Source: Ulva prolifera (lineage: Eukaryota > Chlorophyta > Ulvophyceae > Ulvales > Ulvaceae). Taken from it: a stretch of DNA of 64,000 nucleotides. This document shows positions 4,052-52,422 of the stretch, one piece after another; within the stretch, counting starts at the first letter, position 1; each line of letters begins with the position of its first letter. The stretch is from NCBI GenBank assembly GCA_023078555.1, contig CM041197.1:1522501-1586500 (forward strand), in the 5' to 3' direction. The notes under the pieces were generated by a model, which saw only the letters and a list, made by a program, of their open reading frames with translations, did not search any database and was not told where the DNA came from. The position numbers and the translations under genes are program-made.

Positions 4052-7002
4052 ATGAAGTTGCAGTCACTGCGCCACCTGGTTATTAGCCATCGCCCTGTCC
4101 CAAGGCCAGCTCCGCGACGCATGACACATGACCGGAACAAACGACCCGTGGCACAGTTTGCCCGACAGCTCCTCATAATTTGGTGCTTGCTGCTGTAGGT
4201 CGCGATACGGCAGGCATGCACAAGTCCTGCGCCCTGCAGGCCCTCAATTCGCGGGAACAATGGAATTGCAACCTCTGCTGCCGCTCCCGCAACGATGGTG
4301 CGCATCCTGAATGCGTAAACAGCCAGCTATCTCGAAATGATGAGGCATATATTATGCCGCATTTGGCCCAAGAGATTGCTGTGGCGGTTGTGTATTACAG
4401 AGTTCTGTCATGCAGCCAACCACGGAGTACAAAATGTCAGAGCTCGAGATGTTCCAAGGCTCAAAGCGCCTACAGACGCAAGTGCTGAAAATTGCAGAGG
4501 ATACAGTGGCTATCCGGTCTCTGGACTGGGATAGGGATCGTTTTGACATCGAGTTTGCGTGCGATTCCCTCTCTGTCCTGCAGCTGATCGAGCTTTCCAG
4601 CGACTATCCTAGAGACACGTACAACCTGCATCCCCGGGGCCCTAACGTCCGCCCGTTAGGTCAGCATCCATGAGGTAGCTGCACCCATGATACCCTCGGC
4701 ATTCGCAGGCGTACCCACCCCCCACATCACATGGCTGGTACAGTGGAACCACAATATCGGCATGCCATACACTTGTCCTCTCTGCTCTGCTGGTGAGGCA
4801 GGCTGACCCCCTCCGTCCGCGATGTCTGGTCCTGCGGACGGCCGGTGTGCATGCGTGACGGTACCTCCGGCCACACTAGCTTGCTCTATGTAATACGGCA
4901 GCATGTGCCTGACTAGTCCCGCTTGCCAGGTACTCATCTCCCCGTGGCTATGGCTGCCCGACCATGCGTACACGTATATGCACACCTGGCCTCTTCTCAT
5001 CGTAAATATGCATGCATATGGCTCATGGTGGAACCACACGGAACGCGCACGCACACACTCAGGGGGTCCCGGCAGCTCAGGGCTGGGGATTGGGACTGTT
5101 CTGGATCAGCAGGATGCGCGGCCTCGTGGCCGCGCTTGCGTGCAATGTGCTTGTGCATTGCTGGTTAACATATGTTCCTGCTATGTGCCTTAGCCTTGCC
5201 TGGGGTGGTCCTGGTAGCCACACACGCACACCCTCCCAGGCAGCTGCGCGGAGCAGGCTGCAGGAGGGTAGCGCCACACCTCCCATGCAGCCGCATGCCC
5301 CACCCCCGCATGCATGCAGGCTGGAGAAGGGCACGACGTACAACTCCTACCTCATCTTCGGCGCCGACAAGACGGCGCTCGTCGACGCGTCGCACGAGAA
5401 GTTCGGCGCGCTGTACCTCGACGAGGTGCGCGCGCAGCTCGCGGCCGCCGGCCGCGACCGCATCGACTATATCATCGTTTCTCACACCGAGCCCGACCAC
5501 TCCGGCCTCATCCCCGCCCTCATCGACGAGTTCCCCGACGTCATCGTCACCGGCTCCAAGGTGCGCATGCTGCGCGCTGCGTGCTGCCATGCATGCGCAG
5601 AGGTCACTGGCGACATGGGGCTGGCGCCTCATGCAGGGGATCAGTGCTTTGTGAGCACGTGCTTGGTGCAATGTACCAGCAGAGACAACCCTCCCAACCC
5701 CTCCCCCCCCCCGTTCCGCCACCTGCTCCTTGCATGCATGCCATATGCGGCCACCCACACAAACCGTACTTCCGGCTTAATTATGCTCCAATCCACCAGC
5801 ATCGTGTGTAGCGGGCACTCCTGAGTCAGCAAAACAATTGCTCTCTTCGATCCGCCACTGCCGTTGGTCCCTGAGGGCCAGATGTGCACCGACACTGTCA
5901 GCAGCAGGTTGAGCTCACCCCCCCCACACACACATGCCCCTCGCATGCATGCAGGTGTCCCTCCGCTTCCTCGAGGGCCTCATGCGCAAGGAGTTCACCG
6001 GCGAGGCGGTCAAGGGCGGCGACGTCATTGCGCTCGGCGGCGGCCACGACATCGAGTTCGTGATGGCGCCCAACCTGCACTGGCCGGACTCGATGTTCTC
6101 GCTCGACCGCGCGACCAACATCATGTACACCTGCGATGCCTTCGGCAGCCACTACTGCACCGAGGACCCCTGGGACACGGACGTCCAGGCGATGCTGCCG
6201 CACTACCGCTTCTACTACGACTGCCTCATGAAGCCCAACGCGCGCTCCGTGCTCACCGCGCTGCGCAAGGTGCGTGCTGCGCATGCTGGGGGAGGGGGCT
6301 GTTGCGTCTGTCGTGGCGCGTCCTCGGGGAGGCGCGTCGGCCGCGCGGCATGGGGCTCGGCTGTGCGGAGGGCTGGAGACTGCGTGCTTCGGGCCTGCGT
6401 GCTGCTTGCGTGCATGGGGGTGATCAGAAGCAGGCCAGGAGGTGTCTGGGTGTCCTTGCTGTTGCATGGGCCTGTGTGAGTGCCGGCGTCGGGCGGTGCC
6501 ACTCACCGGTGGGGTGCTGCAGCACCTGTAGTGGTGAGCGATCGTCGGCGATTTTAGCTTTTCGTGTCCAATGCGTCATGCGTTGGAGTGTTGATTCGGG
6601 ACGTCGAGGCGTCAGCCTTTTCATTCCACCATGCGATGGTGCATGTTCAATTTGTGCCTGTCACAGGCATGTAGCGCGGCACGCAGGCATGTTGAACAAA
6701 TCACAGGAGCCCATGCCATTGCATGGCACAGCACAACAGCAGACCGCGAACCGTGTGCATGTGCAGGTGGAGGGGTGGGAGTACGACACGATCTGCAACG
6801 GCCACGGCCCGATGCTGCGCTACAACATGCCGGAGCTCGTCGAGGACTACCGGTCGTGGAGCGCGAGCATCGGCAAGGCCGCCGCGAGCGTCGCCGTGCT
6901 CTACATGGACAACTACGGCTACTGCGACCGCCTCAGCCAGCAGCTCGCCCGCGGCATCGTCAAGGCCAACATCGCGACCGAGATGGTCGACATGGCGCGC
7001 CG

Positions 7003-7044
<42 letters not shown>

Positions 7045-9108
7045 CTGTGCTGCGTGCTGTGCTGCGTGCTGAGTGTCACAATATACCATGCTGCATGGTG
7101 TGCCATGTCCTGCGGCATGGGCTGTGTGCTGTGCTGCGTGCCGCTGTCGGACGCCCACGGTCCGGCATCGGCCTGCCGGGTGTCACGACAACGCGTGATC
7201 CCGGCCCTGACCGCGGCGCGTGCTGTGCAGACGATGATCGACCACGCGGAGCTGCGCGCCATCCTCGGCACGTCGAAGGGCGTGGTGATCATGTGCCCCA
7301 ACAGCGCGAGCGCCGCAGCGCGCGAGACCCTCAACGTCGCCTTCAGCGAGCTCAACCCCAAGAAGCACCGCGTCGCGATCGCGGAGAGCTTCGGCGGCAA
7401 CGACGAGCCCGTGGACAAGCTGACGCGCGACCTCCTCGGCCTCGGCATCGAGCCTGCGTTCGTGCTGCGCATGAAGGCCGACCCCACCGAGCAGGTGCGG
7501 ACGCGCCTCAGTTCGCCGGTCCTAGCAGCATTGCCTGGTAGCGTGATATGGCACTCTGCCATGGCATGGCTTGAGCTCTCACGATTTGTACCGAGCAGGT
7601 GCGCACGCGCCCACCGCGAAACTCCTCCCCCGCCGATCCGCGATGCGTTTGCACTCGAGGGGTGTCCGGCGGGGCCCCGTGAGTCCACTCACAGAGCTCA
7701 CGACGAACACCACACACGTACGCTCTCACCGACGCCGGCACGCCTCACACCCCTGGCAGGCAGACCGTAGCCCTGTTGGCGGCCCGACGGGGTCCACTTG
7801 ACAGCATGCACAGCCTGTGCGTGACCAGGCTAGAGCAGCACAGGCGTTCCACGGTGTCACATCATCGCTGTCTGCTGACCTCAAAGCGCCAACCCCGGAG
7901 GGTCGATCGTGAATTGATGAGGACAGGATGCACACGCAGTCCTGCTGGAGTAGCAGCTACTTCTCATTTGTGTCACTATCTGCGGAGGCGACACGATCCC
8001 AGGCCGCCCCAGCCACTCTGTCAGTGCAATGTGCTGTTACAAGGACAACGCCAGCGAGGTGGGTAGCACCGCAGGCCACAGCTGCGGCACTGTGTCACAG
8101 CTGTGGCCGGGGTGCAGTGCTACCAGGAGTACGAGGAGGCGGGCACCGACCTCGCGCAGGCGCTCGGCAAGAAGGAGGCGATCGCGAAGCTGAAGAAGGC
8201 GATGCCGCCGCACATCTCCAAGGCGCTCGGCAAGCTGAGCAGCGGGCTGTACGTCGTGACGGCCGCCGGCCGCGCCGACGCGCGCTCCGCCATGATCGCC
8301 TCCTGGGTCGCCCAGGCCTCCTTCGAGCCCCTCGGCCTGACCATCGCGATCGCGAAGGACCGCGCGATCGAGTCGCTCATGCAGGTGCGCCGCCGCGTGT
8401 GTGCATGCATGCTGGCCATGCGTGTGGGTGCGAAGTGCGTCACGGCGACGGACGCTCGCGCAGTCAGTGAGATGGCCTGAGCGGTCGGCAGGCGGCGGTG
8501 GGGCGTGGCAGACACCGCAATGCCGGGGAGCTCGATTACGGCCTATCGTGCCCCGCAACAGGTGAAGGCGGTGGGCTGGTGCGCCGAGTTTGCGAGGCTG
8601 CTGTGTGTTTGTGTGTAGGTGGGAGACACGTTTGTGCTCAACGTCCTCGGCGCGAAGGAGGCGACGCCCGTGATGAAGCACTTCCTGAAGCGCTTCCCAC
8701 CCGGCGCGGACCGCTTTGAGGGCGTCGACACGCTGCAGGCCGCCAACGGCAGCCCCATCCTGCAGTCCGCGATCGCTCACCTCGAGTGCCAGGCACGCCC
8801 CCCCTCCTCCCCCTGCCCTGCCCCACGGAATCTACTCAGTCCAAAGACGCCTTGCCAACACATACTTGTACATGCGGGGGGTTGCCAGTGGTGCTCCCCA
8901 CTGAGTGCGGTCGCGCTTCCGTGTGCCCGGGCGCAAGCAGGCCCATGTGCATGTGTGTATACACACGAAGGCGGAGGGGGTGCAGGTGGAGTCGCGCATG
9001 GAGACGGCGGACCACTGGATCACGTACTGCACCGTCGACGTCGGCGCCGTGAAGGATGCCACGAAGAAGACCGAGGTCCACCGCCGCATCGTCGCCAGCT
9101 ACTACTAG
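4052..9108 (+). CDS. FLVB: Flavodiiron protein, B-type (FLVB / Flv3-like), chloroplast
   Basis: Ten exons: 4052-4078, 4199-4314, 4403-4558, 5320-5560, 5955-6269, 6767-6994, 7231-7494, 8118-8384, 8619-8792 and 8986-9108 (636 aa). All phases agree. Flavodiiron proteins of this class reduce O2 to water at the PSI acceptor side, usually as an A/B pair in the stroma. The beta-lactamase-like domain carries HTEPDH (155-160), then H222, D241 and H298. The full diiron ligand set (H155, E157, D159, H222, D241, H298) is therefore present, which points to the B/Flv3 type rather than A/Flv1. A flavodoxin-like domain starts near 327 with YMDNYGYCDRL (FMN site). A flavin-reductase-like domain covers about 480-636. 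The N-terminus (about 60 aa; Ser, Ala, Arg, no early acidics) looks like a transit peptide, but exons 1-2 are less certain. Introns 6 and 9 begin with GC. Intron 6 holds a run of 41 C. Exons 1-3 are much less GC-biased than the rest. Confidence 0.93.
7003..7043 (+). repeat. Run of 41 C inside FLVB intron 6
   Basis: An uninterrupted C homopolymer begins eight bases after the proposed GC 5' splice site at 6995. Read as protein it would insert about 14 prolines into the flavodoxin domain, which no family member has, so it is intronic. Its length may be unreliable in an assembly. Confidence 0.85.
8031..8075 (-). repeat. Dispersed repeat family A copy in FLVB intron 7
   Basis: Reading the minus strand, it shows GGTGCTACCCACCTCGC followed by TTGTCCTTGTAACAG, matching copies at 36-43 kb and 58.6 kb. 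It ends about 40 bases before the intron's 3' splice site. Confidence 0.6.
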
Positions 9109-10497
9109 GCGCCCCCGCAGCAGCTGCTGCCGCCTGCCGTGTAGGCCGCAGCTGTCGCGGCCTTGACTTGTCGTCGCCTGCTGGGTCTACCCGACAGACC
9201 TGCTCGACAGCTTGGCTGCGTGCATCGGCGTGGACGCTGATACCTATCATGCGCATGTGTGTGTGTGTAGATGCACAGCGCGCAGTGCAGCAGGAATGCC
9301 GCCTGTGATTGTGAGCGGCAGTTATGTAAGACAATTAGTTGGGATTGTGGAGAACTGAGGCGGGCTGTGGTACATGCCGGAGGCAGTGGCTTGGGCCCGG
9401 GCGGGTTCTGTACGAGCATAGCAACGGCTTCCAGGGTCGTGGGGAGCGGGAGGAGGTGGATGACCTCGGGGGGCTACGTCCTCAGATCCCCCGGCTTGTG
9501 CAGCTGGGCCGTGTCATGCGAGAACCCGCGGTGCGCGGCTCTGCAACGTTGCCGGACGAGCCAGGGCACCTGCCCTGGCCGGGTCTATGCGGACATTGAC
9601 ATAGTGTGAGCGGCCGACAACAATGGCCGACAACAACAGAGATGTCTGGGGTGCGTGGCCGCAGCTCGCCAATCGATGTGGAACGGCGTGGCCGTGACGC
9701 GGTGTAGTTCAGCAGCGGCGCAGTGTCACAGCTGCACCGTTGCTGGAGACTTTGCATGGCTGCCAGTTCCAGCTAGGAAGCAGTACCCCCGAGTGGCTCA
9801 TCGAGTTTGTGCTGTAACGATGGTTTCACGGGTCTGGAATCGGAGCCACGATCGTGCTCCGATTCTCCGCAGCATACTGATGACATGCTGTGTGGTGGAT
9901 GCACAGTACTGTAATACCAGGGACAGTGCTGTGAGGCCATTGCATTCCTACCTACAAGCTGATCAAGCACATTGCCATATTCCACGTACATATGCCTCAT
10001 TGCGTTCAGAGGCTGGCAGCTGTTAGATTTATTGCCATGCACGTGTTGGAAATTCCCTCCCACCAACGTACTTGTGCACACAGTGGTGTTTCACAGGGGA
10101 CACAGTGGCGCCTTACAGGGAGCACCAAGTCACGTTGACAGCGCTTGCAGCAGACATGCTGTGACAACACTGGACGTGTATCTGTCAGGCATTCTCGCCA
10201 TCCAGACTCTGGCATCAGACTGCGGAATCACCTGTGAAGCAATGCTTCATGCACTGCTGGTCAATACATTTCATGCAATCACGTGTCAAGCTTTGTTTCA
10301 ATTGAATTTTACGTCCACAAGTCAGCATTCCATCGCGAAGCTGCTACTGCTTGCAGGATGACGGAAAAGGCGTCATGGCAGGGTCGCCAAAAATCTAGAC
10401 AGGAAAAAATGATGGCGCCACCCACTCACCAAGCACATGATGCCGAATACCTGTACCGCCTTGTGTCTATGCGCTGCGTTGCATGCCATCAGCTGTA
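9109..10497. other. Intergenic, between convergent FLVB and MDP1
   Basis: Holds the 3' flanks of both genes. The first 500 bases are G-rich on the FLVB sense strand. I see no coding exon or strong repeat. Open frames here have no convincing splice sites or composition. Confidence 0.5.
9325..9329 (+). terminator. Candidate polyadenylation signal of FLVB (TGTAA)
   Basis: TGTAA is the usual green-algal poly(A) signal. This is the first copy after the FLVB stop, about 215 bases downstream. The pentamer is short, so chance is possible. Confidence 0.3.
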
Positions 10498-13192: not shown

Positions 13193-13281
13193 TCTGAAAC
13201 CTGACTATATGTAGCTTCTCATTTTTTCCTGGTGATTGTTGAACCGATCAAGGCGAGCTCTTTACGACGTTCCTCAATACT
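13193..13281. promoter_or_regulatory. Short space between PGP and a possible divergent gene
   Basis: Only 89 bases separate the PGP start from the ATG of the weak minus-strand exon. If both are real, this is a shared bidirectional promoter region. It is AT-richer than its surroundings, with no clear TATA box. Confidence 0.3.
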
Positions 13282-16056
13282 ATGCAGCGCGTTGCTGCAG
13301 TAACACGTGGACTGGGTCAAAAGTTCGCTTGCGTCAAACAGCAAGCACGTTCCGTCAGAGCCAACGTCGCGGCTATAGCAGCGCCCAACATGCAAACCAA
13401 AGCTACTGACGATGAGAAGCTTGCGTTGATCAATAAGGTGAGCCACTGCGCAACGCCTGTAAAACTCAATTATGCCCGCTATGCCCTCGCATCCGGCACT
13501 GCAGGTGCGGTGTCAGACGAAGAGACTCCATTCGATGTGAGCAATAGCCTCATTTCAGATCTAATCTTTCAAGTGCCTGGTTGAGCTGAATGTTTTACTC
13601 TCAACCGTGGGCTTGATTCCGCGGTTGCACCGACCCCGTCATGCTTGCCCGGATGCAGGCAACAACGCATCTGAATGCAGCATGGGCACGCCCAGAAGTA
13701 CAAAATTTGTATTTGAACCAATGACACGGCATCCCTGTTCTGGGCCGGTTTGATGTGGCAAGATTTCGCGTGTGAACTGTTGCGTGTTGCAGGTTGAAGC
13801 GTTCATCTTCGACTGCGATGGAGTCATCTGGAGGGGGGACACACTCATCCCGGGAGTGCCAGAGACTCTCGATATGCTTCGCAAGGCCGGTAAGAAGTTG
13901 ATTTTTGTTACCAACAACTCTACGAAGTCCAGGAAGGGGTACCAAGGGAAGTTCACCAACCTGGGACTCACTGTTGCGCCAGAAGAGATCTACTCCTCTT
14001 CATTCGCGGCTGCGGCATACCTTGAGGCGACCAACTTCCCCAAGGATAAGAAGGTGTACGTCGTGGGTGAGGTCGGCGTCCAAGAGGAGCTCGACTTACT
14101 AGGCTTCCAGCACTTCGGTGGACCTGAAGATGCAGACAAGGTAGCGCACCACCAATACACGACTCTATGCACTTATCAGTATTGCCAATATCCCTGCACA
14201 TGGTGAGCACATGTCAATGCTAACATTGCTCATAACACAGCCACCATGAGCGCATTCAACACCATGAGTATGCTCAAGCAGATTGCACTTCTCGCTCAGC
14301 ACTTCTGGTGCGGCTGGGTGTCGCTCTCCCTGGCCTCTTAGCTGTTACGTTGTGGCGTGTTGTGAAGGCATGCACACCTGCTCATGGCATTGCCACAGCG
14401 GCACAACCCGGCGCGGGTCGGGTCATGGTATGGCCAGCCTCCAGACAGCCAATGCCGTGGTCCGGCCAGCTCCAGAGCGGCCACGTCCAGCTCCAGGGAC
14501 CGGGCAGGCGCTCCCATGCCACGGCTGTGTCTTGACATTGGAGCTCATGCGGTCGAGCCACCGCTACACCTCAATGCAGCCCCATGTCAGCAAGTGCATT
14601 CCCTCATACCACGCTGTGCAAGCTGCCCTGGGGAAGCTGTGCCGTGCTCGGCCACGCAATCGATCTGCGAGTCTGTGATCTCTTGCGCTCCGGCTGCGCC
14701 CTGCCAGCTCATCTGGGAGTCTGAAGAACTGCCATCGGTTCCCACCGCTTTCGATGCTGCAGTCGTGTTCCGCCATGCAATCGCCCATGCCCACGCCCGT
14801 TGTGTCCACTGCAGTTCATGTGCCACAAATCGCAAGCGTGTGACATGGATATACTGTGCTAAATCAGAAGTTTCGTTTGACGTCTGAGGGCAGCATTCCT
14901 GTGAACAGATTATTCCTGATATTTCGACACCTGAGGCCTGCGTTATACATTACAGCTAGGGCTTTCCACTGCACTGAAGATCTGCATTATGCTTTGCTTG
15001 GTGGCCCTTTCAATTTATTGCGGTAGGTACACATACTGTCTGTAATTTGCTGGGCGGTTCCAATGACAACGGTCCCTGATCATATCCCGCTTTGGCATTT
15101 TACTATTCATCTCTACACAGCACGTAGACACCTCGATAGCAACACGGCAATAACAGCACGGCACTGCTGAGCTGCAGGTGCCGCCGATGACGAAGGGCAG
15201 CAAGCTCGAGACCGACCCGGACGTCGCGGCCGTCATCGTCGGCTTCGACCGCAACATCAACTACTACAAGATCCAGTACGCGACGGTGTGCCTGCGGGAG
15301 CACCCCGGCTGCCAGTTTATCGCGACCAACCTCGACGCTGTGACGCACCTCACCGATGTGCAGGAGTGGGCCGGCAACGGCTCCATGGTGCGCGCCGCGC
15401 CTGGGCCTGAAATTCACCTGCTCGTGACGGCCCAGGTTGCTGCTGCTTTGCCTGTGATGTGTGATGTTGCGGGATGCTGCTGTTGCATGGTCGTCATGTC
15501 GCTGCGAGCCCACGGTGCTGAAGGGGAGGGACGGCCCTGTAGGCGTGTCGACAGGGCAACCCCACTGACCCCGGGTTGGCACATCGTACATTGCTTCATG
15601 TTGGCCGTTCGCACAATGTACACTGTACAAACGCTGTCTTGGCCCAGCGGTAGGCGTGTCCGTGAGGCGGCTGCGGCGGCTGCGACATGCTTCCAGCGCC
15701 AGCAATCCGGCCATGCGGGGCAGTGTTTGGGGTCTGTGCATACATGCGCTGCGTGCATGCAGGTCGGCGCAATCAAGGGCTCAAGCCAGCGCGAGCCGAC
15801 GGTTGTCGGAAAGCCGGCAGACTTCATGCTGAAGGACATCGCGGCGAAGTTCGGGCTCGAGGCGGCGCAGATGTGCATGGTCGGCGACCGGCTGGACACC
15901 GACATGGAGTTTGGCCTGCGGGGGGGCCTCTCAACGGCGCTCGTGCTGTCGGGTGTGACGACGGAGGCAGAGCTTCTCGCAGAGGGCAACACGACGCGGC
16001 CGGAGTGCTACATGGACCAGCTGCCGGACCTCCTCACGATCAAGGACCGCCTGTAG
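13282..16056 (+). CDS. PGP1: Phosphoglycolate phosphatase, chloroplast (PGP/PGLP)
   Basis: Four exons: 13282-13437, 13793-14140, 15178-15387 and 15763-16056, all joined in phase 0 (335 aa). The enzyme hydrolyses 2-phosphoglycolate, the product of Rubisco oxygenation, to glycolate in the stroma, the first step of photorespiration. HAD motif I is FDCDGVIW (D59 nucleophile, D61). Motif II is VTNNSTKSRKG (T92). The cap segment has VGFDRNINYYKIQYAT. Motif III is VVGKP (K255) and motif IV is MVGDRLDTD (D280, D285). The first 40 residues (rich in Arg, Ala and Val, no early acidics) fit a transit peptide. Length and order match plant and Chlamydomonas enzymes. Third-position GC rises from 27 of 52 codons in exon 1 and 79 of 116 in exon 2 to 86 of 97 in exon 4 (hand count). 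Confidence 0.95.
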
Positions 16057-17536
16057 CCGCGCGGCGCGCGGATAGAGGAGCGGCAGTTGAGAGGCCGCGG
16101 TGAATTTGTACGAGCGATCGTGCCTTGTGGCACGTGATGCCGCGGGGGCGTGGGAGAGTTTGAGAGGGGATGCTGTGCACCGGGGCGGCGTGCTGGGTGC
16201 GTGAGCGGAGGCTGCGCTGAGAGCATCGTTGAGTTGGTGTGCCCAGGTGGGCGCTGGAAGGCAGGCGGAAACCGGCAGAGGCAGTGTGAGGCTGCCGCAG
16301 GGCATGCTAATTCCTGAATGAGGTGCGGTTTGGGGGATCATACTGATGCAGCCCTTGGAGTGGCTCGAGTGTGGTGGTGGGGGGGCTCTTGCGACCATGC
16401 CTGGCCGCATACCTACAGGCTAGTGCACAAGTTTGTTGAGGCCCGAGGGTGCCGGAGGCCACATGATATCTGCACGCCACGGCACCTGCAGGGCCCCGGG
16501 ACGAGTCATAGGCACATGTGCTTGTAATAACCATTTCGTGTCTGGGCCACCTGTGGCAGCTGTTCTTGTAGCCACGATGGCTGTCTCTCATGTGCGGTGC
16601 ACAGGCCGCGTGAAACATGAACGATCGCTCCTGGTCTGGGAACCATTTGGTACATGTCCAGCGTGGCGTGCATTCGAAGTTCATAGATGTCTCGATACGA
16701 GCGACGTCCCAGCTCGTCACAGCAGCACAGAATATTCATCACATGACGTGGCACTTTCTGAAACTGGGAGCTTGCAGAAATCATGCCCCCAGTCGCGACA
16801 TACACAAACAGTGCCCCAGCTCGTGGCGGTCAGCATCAGTGCTGGCCACCTGACAGAACAGGTTTACTTTGAGAAATTGGCATTGTTGACTGGACACCAC
16901 TAGTGCACAACCTTCCTAGACCCCACTCTGGGCTGCATTCTCACCTGCGGTCTTCCCACCGAGACCACCTTTGTCTCTCGCCTTTGCCTCAAGCCTTCCC
17001 TCGGGGTCTTGGGCACGCCGCCGTCGTGAACACGCCGCAGCACAACCCGACCCCTCAACCCGTGCCCTCGGGTATCACGATAAGAACCACGGCATCGGCC
17101 GTTCCGCCAACCTTCGGGGAACCCCCCGCTTCACTCGCTAATCGGTGCATCCTCCCTGTCGCATCCGCACCTGGCGCATGCATCTCACGCATGCATACAA
17201 TTTGTGGGACACGTTCATCCGGGGCCCACCGGCCCCGGTCCCAACCAACCCGCTCAGCTAGACGTCTGCCAAATGCACAGGGCCGGGGCGGGGCAAGGCA
17301 TACAGCCACACGGAATCAGCGCAGCCTCCCCACCCTTCTGTCACCTCAGCGCAAGGCAGCACCAGCTGGCTCCGTACCCACTCGCCAGCGGCAGCCCCAC
17401 CCGCCGCATCCGATTATCTGTCCCCGTGGCCTGACCCACCGCACAGGTGTCCGAGCCTCAGCTCCGAGGTGGCCACACATGCCAGGCGCAGCGCGCCGCA
17501 TGCATGATGCGCACACGCGATGCCGCCGCGACCAGC
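16057..17536. other. Convergent 3' flanks of PGP and KEA3; no gene
   Basis: The first 450 bases are G-rich on the plus strand (the PGP sense strand), with a TGTAA at 16523-16527 that could be its poly(A) signal. From about 16.9 kb the plus strand becomes C-rich, so the KEA3 sense strand is G-rich. A long plus-strand open frame at 16.9-17.6 kb is a by-product of this composition, since it runs antisense into the last KEA3 exon. Confidence 0.6.
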
Positions 17537-20500
17537 CTAGTCCTTGGTGCCGGGCCCCTCCGGACCATCGATGGAGTTGTCGAAGGTGCCGGAGCCGGTG
17601 ACGTCGCCGAGCACGGAGCCCGGCCGCTGGCGCGAGTTGTTCTTGACGTCGATGAGCTTCAGCTTGGCCGCGGTGCGCGCCCACGGCCACTGCTTCGGCT
17701 TGTCCCGCTTACGCTGCCGTGACGGCAGCGTGCCCTGCACACCACGCCGCGCCCGTCAGCCACCAAGATTCATGCTGTCATTGGCAAGCACAAAAGGCTG
17801 CGGCAATGCCGAGTTCATTCAACCCTGTGTCACACGTCACGCATGAACATCCGCAGCGCCCAAACATGCCGGCACGACCAACTGCTGCGCCTGTCTGCAC
17901 AGCACACAGCTTTCAGCACGAAGAGGGTAGCGCACGTCGTGCTTCTCGTCTCTCCCTAAGTCCACCGTCGCGTTGACGATCGATTCCGAGGCCGTCTGCG
18001 CGGCGGCCGCCTGCACGAGGTCCTTCGGCGGCGTCTTCGCGGCGCCGTTCGGCTTCGCCGACAGGTCAAGCGTGTCCGTGGCCTTCATGCCCGACAGATC
18101 CTCCTCGTCGCCACTCATGCTCTGGCTCGCGGGATCGTCCGCCGGGGGGAGGGGCGACGAGAAGCCGACGCCCTTCATGACGCCGCCGTTCGTCGACATC
18201 GTGCCGCCGCTCTCTCCGCGGCCCTTTGACGCGACTGCGTCCTTTATCATCAGCTGCATCTCCTGTTCGAGGAAGACGAGGTCGACGTAGGAGGTGTCCA
18301 TGAGGGCGCGCAGGACGGTGTCGCCGAGGGCGACTCCAGCGCTCGCGCGCGTGACCACCTGCACAGCGTGCTGGGCGTGGCCGCGGGTCGTGCATCACTC
18401 TTGCCATGCATCATGGCCATGGTGTGGCAAGATGCCGGCGGGCATGGCTCCGGCGTGCGCCGGCAACGGCTGCGCCAAGAGGCTAATGCCGCCGGGACGC
18501 GGGACGGCGTCCACCCCAGGTTCTAGCCAAAGCTCCTTGCTCACAGCCTTAGCAAATGAGCCGATGTGCATTGTCGTGCGGCAAGCTAGGTCGCTGGTGG
18601 GACGTTAACGGCAACTGCGCTGTCTGAGCGGCGGCTGTACGATGAAAGTGGTGCGCCGGCAGGCCCCATGCTGTGAGAGGCAGACACCGGAGACAGATGT
18701 CGAAAGCAGAGGCTGAGCGCAGTGAGGAAAGGGGGGGGGGGGGGGGGGGGGAGGGCACACCGTGGCTGTCGCCCCGAGGCGCTGCGCCTCGGCCGCGCGC
18801 TCCACGTCGATGCACAGCACAAACACCGGCACCGTCGGCCACGCCTGGCGCACGTTGCGCAGAGCCTGCATCGTCTGGGGGTGCGAGCGCAGCGAGAGCA
18901 CAAAGGCGCGCGGCGACGCGGATGTCGCGGCGCCGAGCACGCTCGACTTGGAGCCGTCGCCGAAGAGCACCGGCAGGCCCTGGCCCCGCGCCTCCCGCAC
19001 CGCCTGGGGGTTGAACGAGAACGCCACCCACTTTGCGGGGTTTCCCGTCAGCGGCGATGACAGCATGTTTGCCACCACCTGCACCCCCCTGCCGCTGCTG
19101 ACGATCGTGGTGTGTAGTGCGCGTGATCGAGCAGCCCTTGTATGGATCGAGTGGGTTTGCTAGCGGAATTCTTGGAACGATGCTCATGCTTGGAGTGCCT
19201 TATAGTCTGTGTTGGAACAGTGAATTGTACCCCGGTTGCGAACTTCGGGGAACCCAGCGAAGCACGGACGAAGTCAGCAGTGAACATGGCATTCATTTTG
19301 GCACATTTATCCGGCCTGCCATGAGTATGACCCCACGCATTTGCAACACACACACTGACTACAGAGGTGTCGGGGGGGCGAGGAGGGCGGGGGGAGAGCA
19401 CAGCGGCACCCTACTCCCAACCCTGAGCCTCCTGATCAACCCTGGGGGACAGTGGCATGAGCATGCATACACCCTGTAGCGATGCACAAAAAAAGAGAAC
19501 ATGCGCAGACTATAACGCATCGTCATGCACGTGCATTGCGCTGGGCGCGGGGGGGGGGGGGGGGAAGGGGGGATGCGCGCCTGGGAGGCTTCGTTGAACC
19601 CGAGGATGACGACCGGTGACGCGGTGGCCGCGAGCGCGTTGCTGCCGGTGCTGCCGCTCTGATCGCGCACCGCCTGCGGCTGCGCAGGGTCCATGAGCTC
19701 GAAGCGCAGGCTCTGGGCCTCCCGCTCGACCTGCGCCTGCGCCTCCCGCGCCTCAAACATGTCGCCCTTGTCCGCGAGGAACGGCGTCAGCGCCATCGAC
19801 GCGACGACAACGCAGATGAGCAGCGCGTTGAGCTCGCTCGGCAGGATCTCGAGCTCCTGTGCGAGTGCCAGCAGCACAAATGCAAACTCGCCGCCCTGCA
19901 CGGAGTGGAGGTCGGACTGGCACACTCGGCCGTGGCTTGCCAACACAGCCTGGGTTGCTGGCGATAGGGGGCATGGGCCATGCCAGGGGCAGTCCGTCGC
20001 GGTCGGGGTTTTACAACATGCAATGAAGGGGGACAGCGGGATGGAGCGCTGCATGCATGCGCGTGCGGCGGCGGCGCACCTGCGCGAGTGTGAGCCCGAC
20101 CTTCACGCTCTCGCCCTCGGAGAGCCCAAACAGGCGCGCCGCGATCGAGGTGATCGCGAACTTGACCGAGATGAGGCCGACGGTGAGCAGAGCGATGGTG
20201 GGGAAGCGCGTGATGAGCACGTGCACGTCGACCGAGGCGCCGGTGCAGAGGAAGAACAGCCCGAGCAGCACGCCCTTGAAGGGCTTGATCTCCGCCTCGA
20301 CCTGCACACGGGCGGTGGGGCGCTTGGCATCGTTTTTTTGGGGCTGCCATCCATAAAATGAACCTACATGTTTGCATTTGTTCTATGTGCTCGAGCTCAA
20401 CGACCCAACACTGCTGCATGTGCGTGCGGTGTCGGAGGTGAGCACGCAGGGCGTTACAACCATGCTCGCGATCCCAGCAGAAGCAACTGCACGCAGCATG

Positions 20501-30500: not shown

Positions 30501-32116
30501 CCCCAGCCTGTCCCCGCAGCAGCGAGACACACAGACACGGAACACGGGCGTACGCACCTCGTCGACGTGCTTGAGCTCCTCGCTGTACTTGTGGATGCTG
30601 AAGTTCGTCTGCGCGTCCTCCCCGCGGCACTTGATCGCCGCGAGGTCGTACGCCAGCGCCGCCTGCTCCTCCGAGTCAAAGCCGCCCAGGTACACCTGCA
30701 CCCACCGGCTGCGTGAGAGTGAGGCAAGCATGTGCGCTGCTGGCACCGTCTGCATGGACATGGCTACGCCAGCACTCCTACACACATGCACGCCGACCAT
30801 CGACCACACGGCGCCGCAGCCTCACCGATTCAGCCGGTGCGTTTCGCTCAGAGGGTGGAACCAGAAGGACGCAACCTACAGGCTTCACGGCCTCTTGGAG
30901 TACGCGGAGGGTGAAGCAACGAGTGCCACGATTTCGCTGGCATGCCTTGCAGAGCCCACAGGGACCGTCTGCTCGGGTTCGATCACGCAATGTAATGCAA
31001 TGTCGGCCGGTGCGATCCCAAATCTCATCCGCAGACAGGGTGAACGACTGGAGGACCCTCCGATCGGGAGTTGGCGGTCCTCAGTTGGAACAAGGGCTTG
31101 CGGGAGGGGAGGGAGGCGAAGCCGGACACGTGATCAACACATGCGTGAGGCACACCTGTTTGCCGCTGTCCCAGATGTGCGCTTCGTAGCGGCCTGTGCG
31201 GCAGTGGTGGGTGACGCCGCGGTACGATGACGTGGAGCGGATGCCGTTCTTTGTGTTGCCCTTGCGCCCCCCTGCGCCACGCCTGCATGCAGCTAGCTGT
31301 TTCATCGACTGACAGACTCACCCGCAGGCCCCAAGCAATGGCCTGTGGTCAGCACACATCAGGACACGCGGGGACGCATCGCCATTGCAGGATGTGACGT
31401 CCGGAACCGCGTGTGGCTGGGCCACATGACGGAATGTTTACTCTCAGGCTCACAGACATGGCACTGCTCATCTGATGATGTGGGCATGGCGGGTGGGCGG
31501 CTCCGGTGCAAGGGTGAATGGGTGAATGTGGCGCGTTGCAATGACGGATGGGTGGGCAATATGCCTGTCCTGTGTCGCCCATGGCAGGAGAGAATTGTAG
31601 GAATGGATGGTGTTGAACACATTCGGACACGCTCAAGGTGACACTTTCCGATTGCTGCAACAGCCAGACAGCTTGGCATTTCTTTTCCTCAAGAGATACA
31701 GGCTGAGTAAGGTTGAAGTTTGGGTCATACTTGGCCTTGGGGGTGGCCTCAGGCGGGGAGTCCTTAGCATAGCCCTTGTAGCTGCGTTTCCGAAGGGTGC
31801 GCCGGTCTTTCTGTACAGGTGTGCCGTCAGCTGCTACGGCTGCCCTCGCTTGAGCAGCGATTGCTTGGTGGGTTACCACCGGAGAGCTTTGCTGTGGCAA
31901 CCTGGTGTCCTCTGCAAACAGCATCGTCTCGCCATTCGCAGAATGCAGAGCTGATGCTCTGGAGACAAGGGAGAAATTGTGCGTGGGCCGGTTCTCACGA
32001 GCGTCCTGGTCCAAGGCATCGCCCGAAATCTCGGGCATTGGTTCTGACTTGACGATGTCCATCTCACTGCGCAGCCCTTGACTGTCATCAGGGTACAGGA
32101 AACGGTCACACATCAT
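27563..32116 (-). CDS. Double-AP2-domain transcription factor (AINTEGUMENTA/AP2-like)
   Basis: Eight exons: 32116-31731, 31282-31156, 30695-30558, 30209-30087, 29782-29641, 29289-28442, 28209-27952 and 27670-27563 (709 aa), all in phase. The start ATG has an in-frame TAA directly before it. The first AP2 domain (about 149-205) begins [20 protein letters not shown] and continues [20 protein letters not shown]. The second (about 241-298) begins [19 protein letters not shown] and continues [20 protein letters not shown]. The linker contains [18 protein letters not shown], close to the linker of plant ANT-type proteins. The two DNA-binding domains are followed by about 400 residues rich in Gly, Pro, Ser and His, probably an activation region. 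A short C-terminal end ([17 protein letters not shown]) looks helical. Both AP2 domains are split by a phase-0 intron at the equivalent position. Exon 1 is low in GC and the rest is high. Confidence 0.93.
29401..29462 (+). repeat. Dispersed repeat family C copy (AP2 intron 5)
   Basis: GTCGTCAATGTCC, then GGATACGGCTCAGTAAAT and AGATTTACTTT, match the copy at 39131-39200 in order and spacing. Confidence 0.6.
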
Positions 32117-37614: not shown

Positions 37615-37686
37615 TTGCTGCAGCTGGATAGTATGGCGGACCTCTGGTGCGGACCTCTGGTGCGCCATACTAGCCAGCTGCAGCAA
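37615..37686. repeat. Inverted repeat, 24-bp arms, 24-base loop
   Basis: The left arm (37615-37638) and right arm (37663-37686) are complementary with a single mismatch. The loop is two copies of a 12-base unit (GGACCTCTGGTG type). A transcript would form a long, near-perfect hairpin, as in a small-RNA precursor. It could also be a tiny foldback element. Confidence 0.8.
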
Positions 37687-45773: not shown

Positions 45774-47238
45774 GTCTTCGCACATATCGACATATCCTGG
45801 TATGTGTCTGATAGGTGAATGTCTGATGCGGGACCGTTCAGGGAGCTCTCGAGTCAGACATCGCAACAAGACCCGGTGAAGCGCTCCGAAGCGCTCTGAG
45901 TCACTCCGTGCACATCGATATCCCCGGTCAGCAGCGGTGGAACATAGCTCGGCCATCAACTACATCACAGTCGGGCGAGCTACATACTATACATACCATG
46001 ATCTGTGTGGCTCATCGCGCTCGACTCCTCAGCCAGATGGGAAAACGCGCGCTAGCTGGTGTCCCAAACGTGTGCAGAGCTCTCGCGATGTGACCAGCCA
46101 GTGCAGCGGCGCGCCAATCAATCACTCGATCACACATGCATTTTTTCAGTCACACGGGTGTTCGAAAACCGTTGATTTTGTATCTGCATGAATACCTGTC
46201 GGGCCCTATTGTGCATCCAGAGCATTGCTTGCCTGACATCAGCTTTGACAGAGCAACCAGCTGACAGCGTACATGCACCAGCATCCCATCACCCCACCAC
46301 ACAGATACACGCAAGGCCATCTTCATGCGATTTGTATTGAGACTCTGTCAAATCAACACTTCCAGACGTGCCTCTGGTGGCAATGCCATGCATCTGCTGG
46401 ACCACGCACAGGCCAGGCGGCTGTGCGCACTGAACAGTTTAAGGGTGGTATGTCCACGATGAGAATCGGGCATCTTCCCAATTCGTGTCTTGCCTGCGCA
46501 TGTGTCTGTGCCGTATTCAGACACGCCCCTGAAGCTGGGATGCGTGCAACCACAAGAGTTGTTGCGGGCAACTCGTTGCGGGCAACTCGTCAGCGCACTT
46601 CATATTTGCGGTGATTATGGCAGGTGATTAAAAAGTACAGAAATCATACAGCACAACCGTATTCTACCGTAATCTTTGCCCATGCTCTTTGCTGCCTGTG
46701 ATACCATGCCCCAGCAGAGCTCTGCACTGGGTAAACCGATCACCATGCATGCGCCACAAGTTCTCTGCGCGGCCACAAGCGCCAGGCTGACGTCAACAAA
46801 CATGGAATCGTGCACAGCAGTTGCAGGAGGCCAGACAATTATACGGCAATATCGCGTTTTTCTGTTCGCGTCTGCAGCCCAGCTCCGAACGCGTTTGAGT
46901 GCCCAGCAAACTTTCCAATCCCCTGCCCCAGCAGCAAATGGTGGACACTGAGTCTTGGCATGCACATGCATGCAGCCCCCGTTCCGCCCTTGCCGGTGTC
47001 GCCCCCATCCCTGGAGCGCCTCCGCCGGCGCACCTGACAAGCCCCGTCCCACAGCGCAACACGCCATGCCACGGCCATGCAACGGGCTCTTGTATACCGT
47101 AGACATGGTATAGCAGAGAGACGTTTTCAGCCACGCTGCTTCATGCCGCTTGTGTTTTCTGTACAACACTGCCCCCCCCCCCCGGTGGCATGTGGCGGAT
47201 GTTACTGTAGTGCGAAATGCCGGCGCGAGGTTCCTGGG
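45774..47238. other. No firm gene; includes the 3' flank of the SnoaL/membrane gene
   Basis: 45.9-46.6 kb is of moderate GC with a tandem of TTGCGGGCAACTCG near 46560. A 12-base C-run lies at 47172-47183. I found no supportable exon. Confidence 0.4.
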
Positions 47239-50154
47239 TTATGCATCCTTCGGTCGCCCGGCCAGCAGCCACACGCCGAGGCCGAAGAACGGCACCGCGC
47301 AGAACTTCCGCGGCGCCCCCGCGCTGTCCATCATCCACGCCTGCCAGAACCCATACAACCCAGCGTCAACCACAAACGCGTAGAACACGCGCTGATTCGC
47401 CATCGCGTCCTGGAAGTACGCGACTCGCGCGCCCACGTCGCCGTACTCTGGCCGCGCCACCGCCCACCACACCGCCGACACCGTCCCGATAAACAGTCCG
47501 ACTCCGCCGATGACGCGGTGCCATGCGGGCGTCTCCACATCGGGGACCTTTGAGCCTGCGGCGGTGGCCGCACCGGCCGGGACGATGTCGGCGGCGGCGG
47601 CAGGGTCGAGGGAGGCGCGGGTGCGGTCCGCAGGCTCGAGGCCGGACGGGTGCGGGTCCGGCGCAAAACGCTGCGCGAGGAAGGGGATGAAAAAGATGTT
47701 TGTGAGGAACATGATGCCGGTCCACTGCGCGAGCTTGCGCGGCACCTTGCGGCTGCGCGCCTCGGTGAGGATGACGGGCAGGAACATCATGCCCCAGGCG
47801 TTGACGAAATTGAAGACGGCCTCGGAGACGGGGTGCTCCGGCACAGAGGGGATCGGCGTGAGGTTCGCGGCCGCGAGCGCGATGTTCACGTAGAAGAAGT
47901 TGAGGCTCTCGTGCAGGAGCTCGAGGAGGGTGGCCTGGCTCGTGTACAGCAGCCCGACGCCGGGGGCGTCCGTGCTGAGCAGCATCCACCACATATACCC
48001 TGCATGCCAGCGCTCACCTTTTACACACCCGCGACGGCAGCTCTGTGGCCGTGGCGGCCCGGAACGAACGAGGTACACGTAGCTCATTCTCTGGGCACAG
48101 TTTCAAGGCGACAGCTCTCAAGAAGAGTGCTGTGCCACCTCATGCTGCATGCAGCGTCCGTTCGAGCTTTTTCAAACATGGCAGTCTAGATCACAGGTGG
48201 AGGCCGTGCAACACAGGACGTGTCAATGCATGGGCACGTGTGGATACGAAAACGCACTCGTTGTTTGTCGAGGCTTTCATGCCCCACCTTGTGCGTATTT
48301 CCCCCCGTATTGCACATGCCGCCCGGCACCGAATTCGGAAGTTGCACGAGATTACAAATAGCGATGCTGTCTGAGTGACGGTGCTGTTTCCATCGCTGCT
48401 GTGGTACGTTCTGATGCGACCGGTCAAAACATTGCGTATGCACACGCGCTGCGCTCCTGCGAGGTGAGCTAGCCTCCCCAGGGCATGCTGTGTGCCCTGC
48501 TCCCCGTGCTTTGTGCTGCGATCCAGCCGCGTCGTGACTTCACTCGAACAGGCACGCCGACCATGCCACCTATGCGACACGCCGAACACGCCAGCAGCAT
48601 CCAGGGGCCACGCTCGCACCCCCGTGCAGCGCTGTGGCAGCTGAAGAGGCACCCCACGGCCAGGCCAGCCCCCGGCCTCCGCGTGTCCGTACGGCACGTC
48701 GTGCATCAGAAGCATGCATGCGCAGCACACATGGACTCGCACGTCAGCATCGCCCCACGTTCAATCCACAGCACGGCATAGAAATTGCGGACCTGCGTAG
48801 AAGGCCCACATGGCGGCGGACTGCAGGGGCAGCTTGGAGAGGTTGGCGGGGTCGGCGCGCGCGAGGCCGACGCCGCGCAGCACGGGCGCCAGCACGCCCA
48901 GTGCGGCGATGGTCGAGTCCCCCGGCTTCGGCGGCGCCGACTCGACGCAGTCGCGGCCCCAGGTGATCTTGCCAGAGTCGTCAACGACGTAGAAGCTACA
49001 GCCCCGCGAGAAGGGGAAGAGCGCGCCGTCGAGCTCGGTGTGCCTGCACCGCAGGGGGCTTTGGCGCCGCGCAAAGTACCGTGAAGTCAAGTAGCTATGG
49101 TGCCGCGTAATGGACAAGTACACTAGATCTGGATTCACCTTGCCGGAAGTCTATGAGCACGTTGTAACCTCCGGATAAACGGGACCTTATTCCGGGGCCA
49201 CATGCCATGTAGGCGGCGTGTAGGGGCGTTAGGCACGATCACATAAAATAAGCGTACGAATGTACAGGTCTGATATCTAGATGGCCACCGTGAACATGCT
49301 GCCAGGCGGCCCAGCACTGTTGTGGTGCTGTGGGGGGGGAGGGGGGGGGGCTGCGAGAGGGGGTTCACGATGCCTCATGATGCAGGAACCCATGGCGTTG
49401 CAAGACGCGTCGGCCTCACGGTGGAGGAAGGGGGTCGGTGTGTGTGAATGTATGGGTGAGTGGATGGATTGTCAGTGAAGCCCGGGCGAGAGTGCTCTCA
49501 ATCAGGCACACAACAGACGATGGGGTGCAGTGGTTTGATGGCTGTGCGTGCCCGCTGGACCTGCAGGCGCTGCGCCACTGTCCCGCGGACAGGGCGCCAC
49601 GCGGACAGGGTGCCCGCGGACAGGGCGCATTCTTCTCTATCTCCCAATACAGGTGCGCGCATGTGGCAGGCACGTATGTATGCACGGGACACATGCGAGG
49701 CTCACCAGGCCACTCCACACTGATTGCCACTGCCAGTGATGTCCGAGATGACGAACTTGAGCTCGGTCATGGACGAGCTGCTGTCCTTGAACTTGGCGAA
49801 GTATGCCGCGATGGCATCTCTGCCAAAGAACGGCTCCAGGTAGATCGCATCATGGTACACCGCGTCCTGCGAAAATCGGTCGGCCATCGTCCCCAGTTCT
49901 CCACGATTGTATGCGGCGTAGAACTCCCGTATAGCGGTTACTGCTATGCCCTCTACTGCCTCGTCTTGAGACACTGTGGCTGCTGGAGCAGTGGCCGGAG
50001 GCGGGTCTTCCTTTTGAGGAGAGGCGTCCTCAGGTGGAGCTTCTGGCTCGGTGGGGGCCGATGCTGCGGCAGCCGCAGGTGCAGCCGGCCAGGATGCCGC
50101 TTTGTCATCTGAGGCTTTGATTGCAGGTACGAGCACCTGATCCACAGCAGCCAT
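47239..50154 (-). CDS. SnoaL/NTF2-like domain fused to a multi-span membrane domain, probably plastid
   Basis: Three exons: 50154-49706, 49043-48793 and 47999-47239 (at least 486 aa), all in phase. The joins fall inside conserved-looking segments and read smoothly, which supports a single gene. Residues about 66-190 resemble the SnoaL-like/NTF2 fold (IREFYAAYNRGELGTMADRF, FFGRDAIAAYF, FPFSRGCSFYVVDDSGKI). The rest is membrane protein, with hydrophobic segments around AAMWAFYAGYMWWMLLS, SLNFFYVNIALAAANL, WGMMFLPVILTEA, GIMFLTNIFFIPFLAQRF, VIGGVGLFIGTVSAVWWAV and FFGLGVWLLAGRP. Similar plant and algal proteins of unknown function are, as I recall, plastid-targeted. An Ala/Pro-rich linker precedes the SnoaL part. 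The frame stays open upstream of this ATG to an acceptor at 50.2 kb (segment ARAISRCASNAQSLT), so a transit-peptide exon may lie further right. Substrate and role are unknown. Confidence 0.82.
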
Positions 50155-51140
50155 GGTCAGTGATTGCGCATTCGATGCACACCGACTGATGGCCCGTGCC
50201 TGGGTAAGTGAGCACCACAATGTGAGTCACCTCCCGTTGTCAATATGTGATGCTACTCTGTAATATGCCTGCGAAGTTGCAGCATCGCCACAGATCACTG
50301 GAGCTTGCGATGCATCGCCACATCAAGGCCACAGCCACGCATCCGGGCATGAAGGCTGGTTGCAAAGTTACCCCGCATGGCTCTGAGGGAACGATGAAGT
50401 CACGAAGAATCGAATATGTGCACGCGTAAAGATCGAGCGTTGCCGTGTACAGCCAGCATGTGCTGAAGACGTGCACAATGGTATTTCGGTGATCTGCATT
50501 AGAGCTGGCACAAGAGTCGCAGAGGGCGTACTCTTTCACCTCCTCGCCCTCGATGGTATCTCATGGATACATTGCTGCACCTGACGCCATGCGTCCACGC
50601 GCAATCGGCGACACGCTGCATTGTGGGAGGACGCGAGGACTGAAGGAAGACACGGCCTGGGGCAAACAGAACAACAGGACGCAAACTGACGACACATACG
50701 ACAGGAGCAAACACTAGCACGACACCGGTGCGTGTATGTCTTTTGAACAATATCCTTGTGCTGATGATGCATATCCTGTTTTGGCATTGCCTGTGCTGTG
50801 CACCACAACGCCGCTGGTAGCCATCGATGACGCGCTTGCTGTATTTCTGGACGGGCTTGTTTAAGCTGGGCGGCCAAGACCAGATTCTGATACCCCTCAG
50901 CTAGAACAGCGCTGCATTCTGCAATATAATAAGCTTTCGTGTAGGTCGATGTTATCGTTACTGGTCTATTTTTCGATTCCTGGTGAACACTGAGCGTCGA
51001 CCACGCACTGCAACTGCACTTTCATTGGTGTACATGTAATAGTCCGTCACATTCCGCTTCATCGGCAGACGTATAGGGCAGGTTGGTCCAAGACGGCAGG
51101 CTGCCGACAATAGATTGGCTGCCTCTTCAGCAGGCGTCAC
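50155..51140. other. Intergenic between divergent genes
   Basis: Probably contains the missing 5' end of the SnoaL/membrane gene (to about 50.2 kb and possibly beyond) and the RRM gene promoter. No other coding support. Confidence 0.4.
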
Positions 51141-52422
51141 ATGGAGACGACGGTAGTCGCAGTCCAAGGAAAGGGATCTAATCCAAAGACTGTATTATAT
51201 GTGGGTGGACTTGAAGAATCAGTGACAGAACTCAGCCTCAAATCGACTTTCATACCTTTCGGTCCTGTCAAAGAAGTCAACATTCCGCTAGATCACGAAA
51301 CAGGATTGCACAGAGGATTCGGGTTTGTCGAATTTGAAGACCGGGAAGATGCGGCGGATGCGATCGATAACATGCACAACGGGGAACTATTTGGTAGGTG
51401 TGCTCACGCTGGCAAACGATCGCGCGCCGTTCAGGTCGCCGCCAGGCCCCAGCTTTCCATGAAGCATTCTGAAGGCATAGCTGGTTGTTCAAGCGCGTTT
51501 CTACATCGTTTGATTTTTCTTCAAGGTGGCTGTGAAACCTGAACGGAATGCGCCAGCGCAGCCCTGCCACGACCATGTTACTTGGGGAACGGAGTGTCGG
51601 CGTACACAGCATTGTGGGCAAACAACCTGCATCAGTGCCATCGTCTGTCACACTTCATACATCATCCACCGCGTAGCAGGTCGACATGCAAGCAGGCCTT
51701 GTGCCTGCTTGCATGCTTGCTCGAGTCAGGCCAGCACGGCTGCCCCGGCAGTCAGCTCCTCCACCTGGCTCGAGCTCCACTGTACCTGCGAAATCATGGC
51801 GCTGTTCCAGGTTTCTCCATTCATGAGATGATGGTGAGAAGTATAACCGGCCGCACATGCACAGCAATCTGTGCAGAAACAATCACAGCACAAAGGGCAC
51901 CATAGTTGCCACGTAGATCGCAGCAACATCACATACACAACTGCTATGTTCCGCCTGTGCAGGGGATGATCCTACTGGTATGCAGGTCATTCCAATCCCT
52001 GCCATTTCCACGGTGTGCGAGTTCTTTGCAAAGCAACAGCATTCAATGCGTGCTTCAACCTGGCCCTCTTTCAGCAACAAGCATGTGATGGCTACGCCAG
52101 GCCCCACAGGCCCACCATCCCACCCACAGTCCATGCCACCACTCCGTCTCTCGACCGTATGCTTGCGTGCAGGGTGCTGCGGGTGAACTATGCTCAGCCA
52201 ATGAAGATCAAGGGTGGCGAGAAGGGCTTCAGCCACCAGGCGGTGTGGGCGGACGCTGACCGGTACCTCGAGGAGCGGCTCGCGGAGGCCGAGCTGGACG
52301 CGCATGAGCGAGAGGTCGCCAAGGCGAAGGAGCGGGAGGCAGCGGCCCTCGCAGAGGCTGAGGGGGACGCCCGGGGCAGCCCAGAGCCACCCGCGGCTGC
52401 TGAGCCGGCGGTGGTTGAGTGA
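51141..52422 (+). CDS. RRM protein related to the PPIE/CYP33 RRM, no cyclophilin domain (plant ATE1-like)
   Basis: Two exons, 51141-51397 and 52173-52422 (168 aa). The join completes ELFGRVLRVNYA. The RRM (about 17-95) has RNP2 LYVGGL and RNP1 RGFGFVEF. It most resembles the N-terminal RRM of cyclophilin E, including FIPFGPVKEVNIPLD and AIDNMHNGELFGR. The isomerase domain is absent. After MKIKGGEKGF and AVWADADRYLEE, the protein ends in an acidic, Ala/Glu-rich helix. This layout matches a small plant RRM protein known as ATE1 (comparison from memory). It is likely a nuclear, spliceosome-associated RNA binder, by family. Third-position GC is 37 of 85 codons in exon 1 and 67 of 82 in exon 2 (hand count). 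The 775-base intron begins GTGTGC. Confidence 0.9.

Follow-up and report, generated by a model that had tools for sequence, protein, structure and literature searches.

In vertebrate isochores, exons, introns and flanking DNA share a regional guanine-plus-cytosine (GC) content, and GC at third codon positions (GC3) varies more than the GC of introns. At the scale of single genes, the first exons of some plants, grasses above all, are GC-richer, a pattern that two papers tie to conversion gradients from promoter recombination (PMC5460877, PMC4684703). For the green alga Chlamydomonas reinhardtii, a third paper describes recombination hotspots with a mean length of 3.4 kb, a correlation between recombination and GC at the 2-kb scale, more recombination in coding sequence than in introns, recombination peaks just outside genes (both upstream and downstream) and a gene conversion bias cited as weak (PMC7186780). 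Here we describe a stretch of 64,000 nucleotides from Ulva prolifera (Chlorophyta, Ulvophyceae; GenBank assembly GCA_023078555.1, 88.9 Mb in 44 contigs), namely positions 1522501–1586500 of contig CM041197.1 (C2), hereafter the window, in which six genes pass from first exons of low GC3 to GC-rich later exons in the direction of transcription.

The polarity of this change is the reverse of the grass pattern and unlike that of Chlamydomonas; its mechanism we infer from base composition. As in grasses, the change within genes is tied to transcription direction and gene structure and involves a strong–weak bias at synonymous sites. Grass genes (in GC-rich species) have GC-rich first exons, whereas the first exon is the poorest here: instead of being highest in the first exon and falling, GC3 is 0.701, 0.828 and 0.810 in first, internal and last exons (34 genes), with internal exons above first exons in 25. 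Chlamydomonas, also a green alga, shows fine-scale GC variation too, but its recombination is highest just outside genes, whereas GC is highest over gene bodies here. With vertebrate isochores the U. prolifera DNA has in common that regional GC is shared by exons, introns and flanks and that GC3 is more variable than intron GC; the GC-rich islands of U. prolifera, however, are of about 2 kb (median 1950 bp in 264 kb) and not homogeneous domains of hundreds of kb, they favour stops whereas CpG islands mark starts, and their shift is not CpG-specific. No rising 5'-to-3' GC gradient in an alga was found among the matches listed in the open-licence literature, an absence that carries little weight.

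The action of biased DNA repair may have left its trace in this rise of GC within genes. Should the islands correspond to recombination tracts, base composition alone could serve as the record for asking what positions recombination in organisms that lack promoter hotspots, and the reversed gradient would offer a natural counter-test of the promoter-hotspot explanation of grass genes.

Stepwise GC3 in the Genes of the Window

Genes were modelled with a hidden Markov gene finder that has four local-GC classes and was trained on the sequence itself. The exons of the six genes, with GC3 as a fraction of codons or as a range, are as follows (window positions from the gene models, with domains from Pfam).

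4410..4618, plus strand: first modelled exon of an FLVB-type flavodiiron gene (FLVB), GC3 44/69 (low)
5320..9108, plus strand: FLVB exons 2–8 (7 exons), GC3 0.91–1.00 (high)
13282..14140, plus strand: exons 1–2 of a phosphoglycolate-phosphatase-like gene (PGP), GC3 44/85 and 79/116 (low); Hydrolase_6 match at residues 89–191
15178..16056, plus strand: PGP exons 3–4, GC3 67/70 and 87/98 (high); Hydrolase_like match at residues 286–360
22234..23249, minus strand: 5' exons of a KEA3-like antiporter gene (KEA3), GC3 0.59, 0.63 and 0.57 (low); joined by hand to the 3' part
17537..21106, minus strand: KEA3 3' exons, GC3 0.90–0.96 (high), with TrkA_N
31621..32113, minus strand: exon 1 of an AP2-domain gene, GC3 101/164 = 0.62 (low)
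27563..31271, minus strand: exons 2–8 of the AP2-domain gene, GC3 0.87–1.00 (high)
49706..50154, minus strand: exon 1 of a SnoaL_2-domain gene, GC3 90/149 = 0.60 (low); SnoaL_2 match (75–177) extends into exon 2
47239..49043, minus strand: exons 2–3 of the SnoaL_2-domain gene, GC3 0.94 and 0.89 (high)
51141..51397, plus strand: exon 1 of an RRM gene, GC3 37/85 (low); RRM_1 match at residues 19–86
52173..52422, plus strand: last exon of the RRM gene, GC3 68/84 (high)

On both strands, GC3 thus goes from 0.44–0.68 in the first exon or exons to 0.81–1.00 later, and a single step up is significant in each gene (p = 0.005, the lowest value attainable in a permutation test that fits one GC3 step per model with 200 shuffles). 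All six genes contain Pfam domains, including ODP and Flavin_Reduct in the FLVB protein, whose high part has kept its introns since it comprises 7 exons, and Na_H_Exchanger in two stretches of the joined KEA3 protein, the best of which (285–473) lies within the high part. An 18-codon KEA3 piece (21353–21406) was set aside as a by-product of the finder's split of this gene. Two other multi-exon models, both on the minus strand, show no significant step, one over the left edge of the window (−1657 to 1096, GC3 0.87–0.93) and one at 60686–61591 (GC3 0.76 and 0.83).

The original prediction had named FLVB, PGP, KEA3, AP2 and RRM as genes with modest-GC 5' exons and GC-rich later ones; all five step up, as does the SnoaL_2 gene, which it had not named. 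Its hand counts of G/C-ending codons are correct within two codons wherever exon bounds agree: those for RRM exon 1 (37/85) and PGP exon 2 (79/116) are identical to ours, and those for the RRM last exon (67/82, here 68/84), PGP exon 4 (86/97, here 87/98) and the FLVB high exon (77/80, here 78/81) nearly so. The counts differ, with different exon starts, for PGP exon 1 (27/52, here 44/85) and the FLVB low exon (31/51, here 44/69).

The Gradient across 334 kb

The sample was extended by 100 kb on each side of the window and by pieces of contigs C1 (40 kb) and C4 (30 kb), giving 334 kb on three contigs with the window included. The four-class finder yielded 52 gene models, with coding sequence (CDS) making up 22% of bases. 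Incomplete models were left out of the counts, as were models below 150 codons (CDS fifths) or 120 codons (steps) and, in exon tests, exons below 20 or 25 codons. KEA3 was joined by hand for the Pfam, step, island and step-position tests, and stands as two models in the tests of CDS fifths, introns, skew, flanks, CpG context and strand.

Mean GC3 by CDS fifth is 0.733, 0.798, 0.831, 0.834 and 0.819 (45 models of at least 150 codons), the last fifth exceeding the first in 30 (p = 3e-4). Without the six window genes the rise from first to last fifth is 0.754 to 0.812 (23 of 38 models, p = 0.006), and in the Pfam-supported subset it occurs in 17 of 21 models, or 11 of 15 outside the window (p = 0.055). 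Rises are found in 15 of 23 plus-strand and 15 of 22 minus-strand genes, which upholds the claim that the shift tracks transcription direction. The single-step test was significant in 20 of 47 models, 18 of them up and two down; beyond the window, the rise is a tendency and not a rule.

Mean GC3 is 0.73 at 0–250 bp from the start, 0.80 at 500–1000 bp and 0.82–0.85 at 1–4 kb, with 0.80 and 0.78 beyond 4 kb (8 and 4 genes). The shape is therefore a rise to a plateau rather than an effect on 3' halves, and the description of 3' exons as very GC-rich is an overstatement: on average GC3 is up within the first 0.5–1.5 kb and level from there on. Among 17 up-steps examined (KEA3 left out), the median position is 471 bp after the predicted start, with onset 0.15–1.8 kb past it in 15. 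Nine of the 17 lie at an intron, where 2.7 would be expected if steps were spread evenly along the CDS, in agreement with the original prediction as to where the change occurs. Introns need not be special, however: they make up about half of gene length (by arithmetic from the gene models), and the correlation of GC3 across them is not below the within-exon value for sites equally far apart in the genome, at distances of 100 bp or more. On these two grounds introns as special step points were not counted as real; in the 50–100 bp bin the correlation is lower across introns, but this bin holds 670 pairs only.

Two long genes beside the window may be mentioned here. A KDM5-type gene (L006–L007, C2:1465364–1475770, minus strand; 2256 codons; JmjN, ARID, PHD and PLU-1) has its step at codon 407, and its GC3 drops again in the last two exons. 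A kinesin-like gene, named from its translation (the one exon searched has no Pfam match; L008–L009, C2:1490812–1499300), has low GC3 nearly throughout, except for one mid-gene exon at 0.87 and two high exons at the end.

GC-Rich Islands, Introns and Flanks

Two-state segmentation called 41 islands in 264 kb, covering 43% of the length (median 1950 bp, quartiles 900 and 4200) with a GC of 0.663 against 0.541 elsewhere. Those over the stepping genes are the following.

5201..9750: island over the FLVB body and 3' flank
15151..21750: island shared by PGP (plus) and KEA3 (minus), over their convergent 3' parts
25951..31500: island over AP2 exons 2–8 and 3' flank
46951..50100: island over the SnoaL gene
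52101..52800: island over the RRM last exon and 3' flank

PGP and KEA3 converge, with their low-GC parts on the outer sides of a shared island, an arrangement that fits what an effect tied to transcription predicts. Among 50 genes, 32 have their stops in islands and 16 their starts (both in 14, neither in 16, stop only in 18, start only in two). In 2000 circular shifts of the islands over the 264 kb, the observed excess of stops over starts was reached in 0.85% of trials, and stops were enriched in islands (21 against 15.3 expected, p = 0.0085).

Noncoding DNA follows the same direction. Intron GC is 0.569 in the first half and 0.604 in the last half of genes (a rise in 28 of 41, p = 0.007) and follows flanking GC3 with a Spearman correlation of 0.60 (215 introns). 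The earlier statement that high GC continues into the 3' flank is true on average, 5' flanks being at 0.564 and 3' flanks at 0.595 (3' higher in 38 of 51 genes, p = 0.001), and high GC in the average profile spans the gene body and about 500 bp beyond the stop. Gene-proximal intergenic GC is 0.595 in convergent (n = 10), 0.587 in tandem (n = 31) and 0.545 in divergent (n = 8) arrangements (convergent vs. divergent, p = 0.056).

Character of the Shift

When exons are sorted by their own GC3, the logit of GC at fourfold sites goes from 0.87 in low to 3.10 in high exons where no CpG is possible (about 2.2), and from 0.08 to 2.09, 0.04 to 2.24 and −0.78 to 1.78 in CpG-possible contexts (2.0–2.6), leaving a CpG-specific share of only about 0.4 of the 2.2–2.6 logit. 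C and G are about equal at fourfold sites, as are A and T, in low and high exons alike; introns of the lowest GC class have a T-A skew of 0.117 and a G-C skew of 0.030, those of the highest 0.114 and −0.023. The weak-to-strong shift is thus nearly strand-symmetric and present with and without CpG. On the logit scale, the shift at coding fourfold sites is about five times that of introns. In high exons GCG, CCG and ACG are the commonest codons of their families and CTC equals CTG. The amino acids of non-first exons shift as well (glycine, alanine, arginine and proline from 0.272 to 0.373; GC at first codon positions from 0.611 to 0.709).

Gene Models and Homology-Anchored Checks

The models are supported by the sharp splice signals on which the finder converged (donor CAG|GTG[C/T]G, acceptor TGCAG|G). 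Given the reverse complement as input, the finder calls all its coding bases again, with no change of strand. In Pfam, 16 of the 40 longest exons from the 44 models outside the window were matched, with IFT57 and DDRGK below Pfam's cut-off; four models outside the window and the window model 60686–61591 were left out of this search. The finder has its weaknesses, as KEA3 is split in every setting shown and PGP in one, and some 5' exons are surely missing. A null with local 200-bp shuffling gave three gene models, none usable, and says nothing on direction.

Ten low-GC 5' exons were searched in Pfam, and four contain domains (JmjN with ARID, PHD, and cobW twice, the second cobW exon having a GC3 of 0.70), while six had no match. 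In 29 genes the strand is fixed by a Pfam match (the anchors being modelled exons, with two matches below the cut-off), and at 500–2000 bp from the anchor GC is higher on the downstream than on the upstream side in 20 of 28 (0.600 vs. 0.560, p = 0.008); three other flank spans gave 19/29, 21/29 and 18/26 (p = 0.02–0.04). Further loci beyond the 334 kb comprise five 4-kb DEAD-box loci, picked by homology, and one rbcS locus. The rbcS gene, found by Pfam (C1:4935867–4936682), has a GC3 of 0.53 in its N-terminal Pfam-matched piece (38 codons) and 0.90 in its C-terminal one (59 codons). A second rbcS-type locus lies at C9:5500952–5501414. The gene content, with FLVB, KEA3, rbcS and LHC families, is in line with a green alga.

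The effect varies in size with the gene finder. First-fifth GC3 is 0.82 with a one-codon-model finder, against 0.73 here; such a finder misses low-GC 5' parts, so that proteins might be annotated without their N-termini.

Possible Causes

Low-GC DNA of about 54%, comprising most intergenic DNA and many gene starts, forms the background, with kilobase-scale islands of about 66% GC lying on it over gene bodies and 3' ends more than over starts. A local process that prefers G:C alleles to A:T ones may have produced the islands; the most likely candidate is GC-biased gene conversion in tracts of recombination or repair. Such tracts would lie past the promoter, over the transcribed body and the 3' end, a polarity opposite to the promoter-centred recombination invoked for grass genes. 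We give this account, read from base composition, about an even chance of explaining both islands and gradient. In keeping with GC-biased conversion, noncoding DNA shifts along with synonymous sites, though with a much smaller amplitude in introns, and the weak-to-strong shift is found in all CpG contexts and irrespective of strand. Because exons shift far more than introns, codon selection at synonymous sites or the turnover of introns would have to add to conversion; coding selection alone would be insufficient, because intron and flank GC move with GC3. Among the three causes offered by the original prediction, 3'-focused biased gene conversion fits best, although the process would not be strictly 3'-focused, as islands cover gene bodies. 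A more specific version is put forward only tentatively: recombination, meiotic or in repair, might be steered off promoters onto gene bodies and 3' ends, for example via elongation-linked histone marks or terminator chromatin, its GC bias having written the reversed gradient.

Several results weigh against conversion over gene bodies and 3' ends. No significant step is present in 27 of the 47 models, and starts are not significantly depleted in islands under circular shifts over the 264 kb (12 against 15.3 expected, p = 0.135). Intron GC goes only from 0.51 to 0.62 as flanking GC3 goes from below 0.6 to above 0.95, which counts against conversion since a uniform conversion bias should move introns equally far. 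Codon families differ, Gly and Arg gaining mostly C-ending codons (GGC 0.70 and CGC 0.58 in high exons) and Ala, Pro and Thr mostly G-ending ones, so some codon or context preference is present. Two of the five DEAD-box loci rise, but at or just before their first modelled exons, with coding exons high throughout; of the others, one falls and two hold genes that stay low from end to end, one of these next to a GC-rich upstream neighbour. Outside the window the anchored flank test at 0–1500 bp gave 15 of 23 (p = 0.23), and the gradient is absent with a finder that lacks GC classes (18 of 40 up, p = 0.62). The latter null is read as the finder missing low-GC exons, because several of those hold conserved domains. 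The last two results would also suit an artefact of gene finding or of the chance choice of window, as would the six low-GC 5' exons without a Pfam match; such an artefact is improbable given the conserved domains in other low-GC 5' exons (PGP, RRM, SnoaL, JmjN, ARID, PHD, cobW and rbcS) and the higher downstream GC at 500–2000 bp when all anchored genes are taken.

The main rival to conversion is a strand-symmetric difference in mutation or repair tied to elongation chromatin, such as an H3K36-methylation-like domain past the first kb, which would give a higher equilibrium GC without recombination. The onset of 15 of the 17 up-steps, the extent of high GC over the body to about 500 bp beyond the stop and the near symmetry of the strands all agree with it; however, a shift of about 2.2 logit would need a roughly nine-fold change in mutation bias, and some genes, among them two DEAD-box genes and the kinesin-like gene, are low nearly throughout though presumably transcribed, so that we regard this explanation as unlikely. 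Somewhat more doubtful is selection for synonymous codons that would strengthen with distance from the start (by a slow 5' ramp or RNA structure in the start region), with introns following weakly for other reasons. Low codon bias near starts is common to many organisms, and the five-fold larger coding shift and the single favoured endings of the Gly and Arg families point the same way; yet introns and 3' flanks rise too, amino-acid content shifts, the leading codons (GCG, CCG and ACG, with CTC equal to CTG) are unlike the preferred set of green algae, and low stretches can extend for hundreds of codons, with 407 in the KDM5-type gene, more than a ramp would span. The highly expressed rbcS gene likewise counts against pure translational selection, which does not predict its split into a low and a high piece.

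Differential cytosine methylation, by which starts and intergenic DNA would decay through CpG deamination and islands would be unmethylated CpG islands, is as improbable as the artefact. CpG observed/expected is indeed lower in low-GC DNA (introns 0.65 vs. 0.84, coding 0.71 vs. 1.16) and CpA/TpG is in excess in every GC class, but the shift reaches 2.2 logit without CpG, close to the 2.0–2.6 with it; decay at CpG alone was rejected as the main cause, the shift being neither confined to CpG contexts nor much larger in them. The two remaining causes of the original prediction fared poorly. Replacement of 3' halves through reverse transcripts shares with the data their 3' polarity only and is very improbable: introns per coding kb are 2.34, 3.83, 2.84, 3.26 and 2.91 by CDS fifth, thus not sparser late than early, and 2.78, 3.26 and 3.15 in high-, mid- and low-GC3 exons, and the introns themselves are GC-enriched. 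Transcription-linked mutation in its strand-asymmetric form was rejected, as skews in introns and at fourfold sites are nearly unchanged with the effect.

Other Observations

Ten islands contain fewer than 100 modelled coding bases each. In the window, island stretches without a gene model lie at 25951–27500, 36851–38400 and 56751–58600, and a looser finder setting places a short model at 57621–58213; these stretches are either missed genes or islands outside genes. The splice signals of the 334 kb are unusually sharp (acceptor T 0.91, G 0.93, C 0.90), and GC donors make up about 7%. Whatever its GC class, noncoding DNA shows CpA/TpG at about 1.5 times and GpC at about 1.25 times the expected value, along with mild CpG depletion, as if cytosine methylation acted genome-wide.

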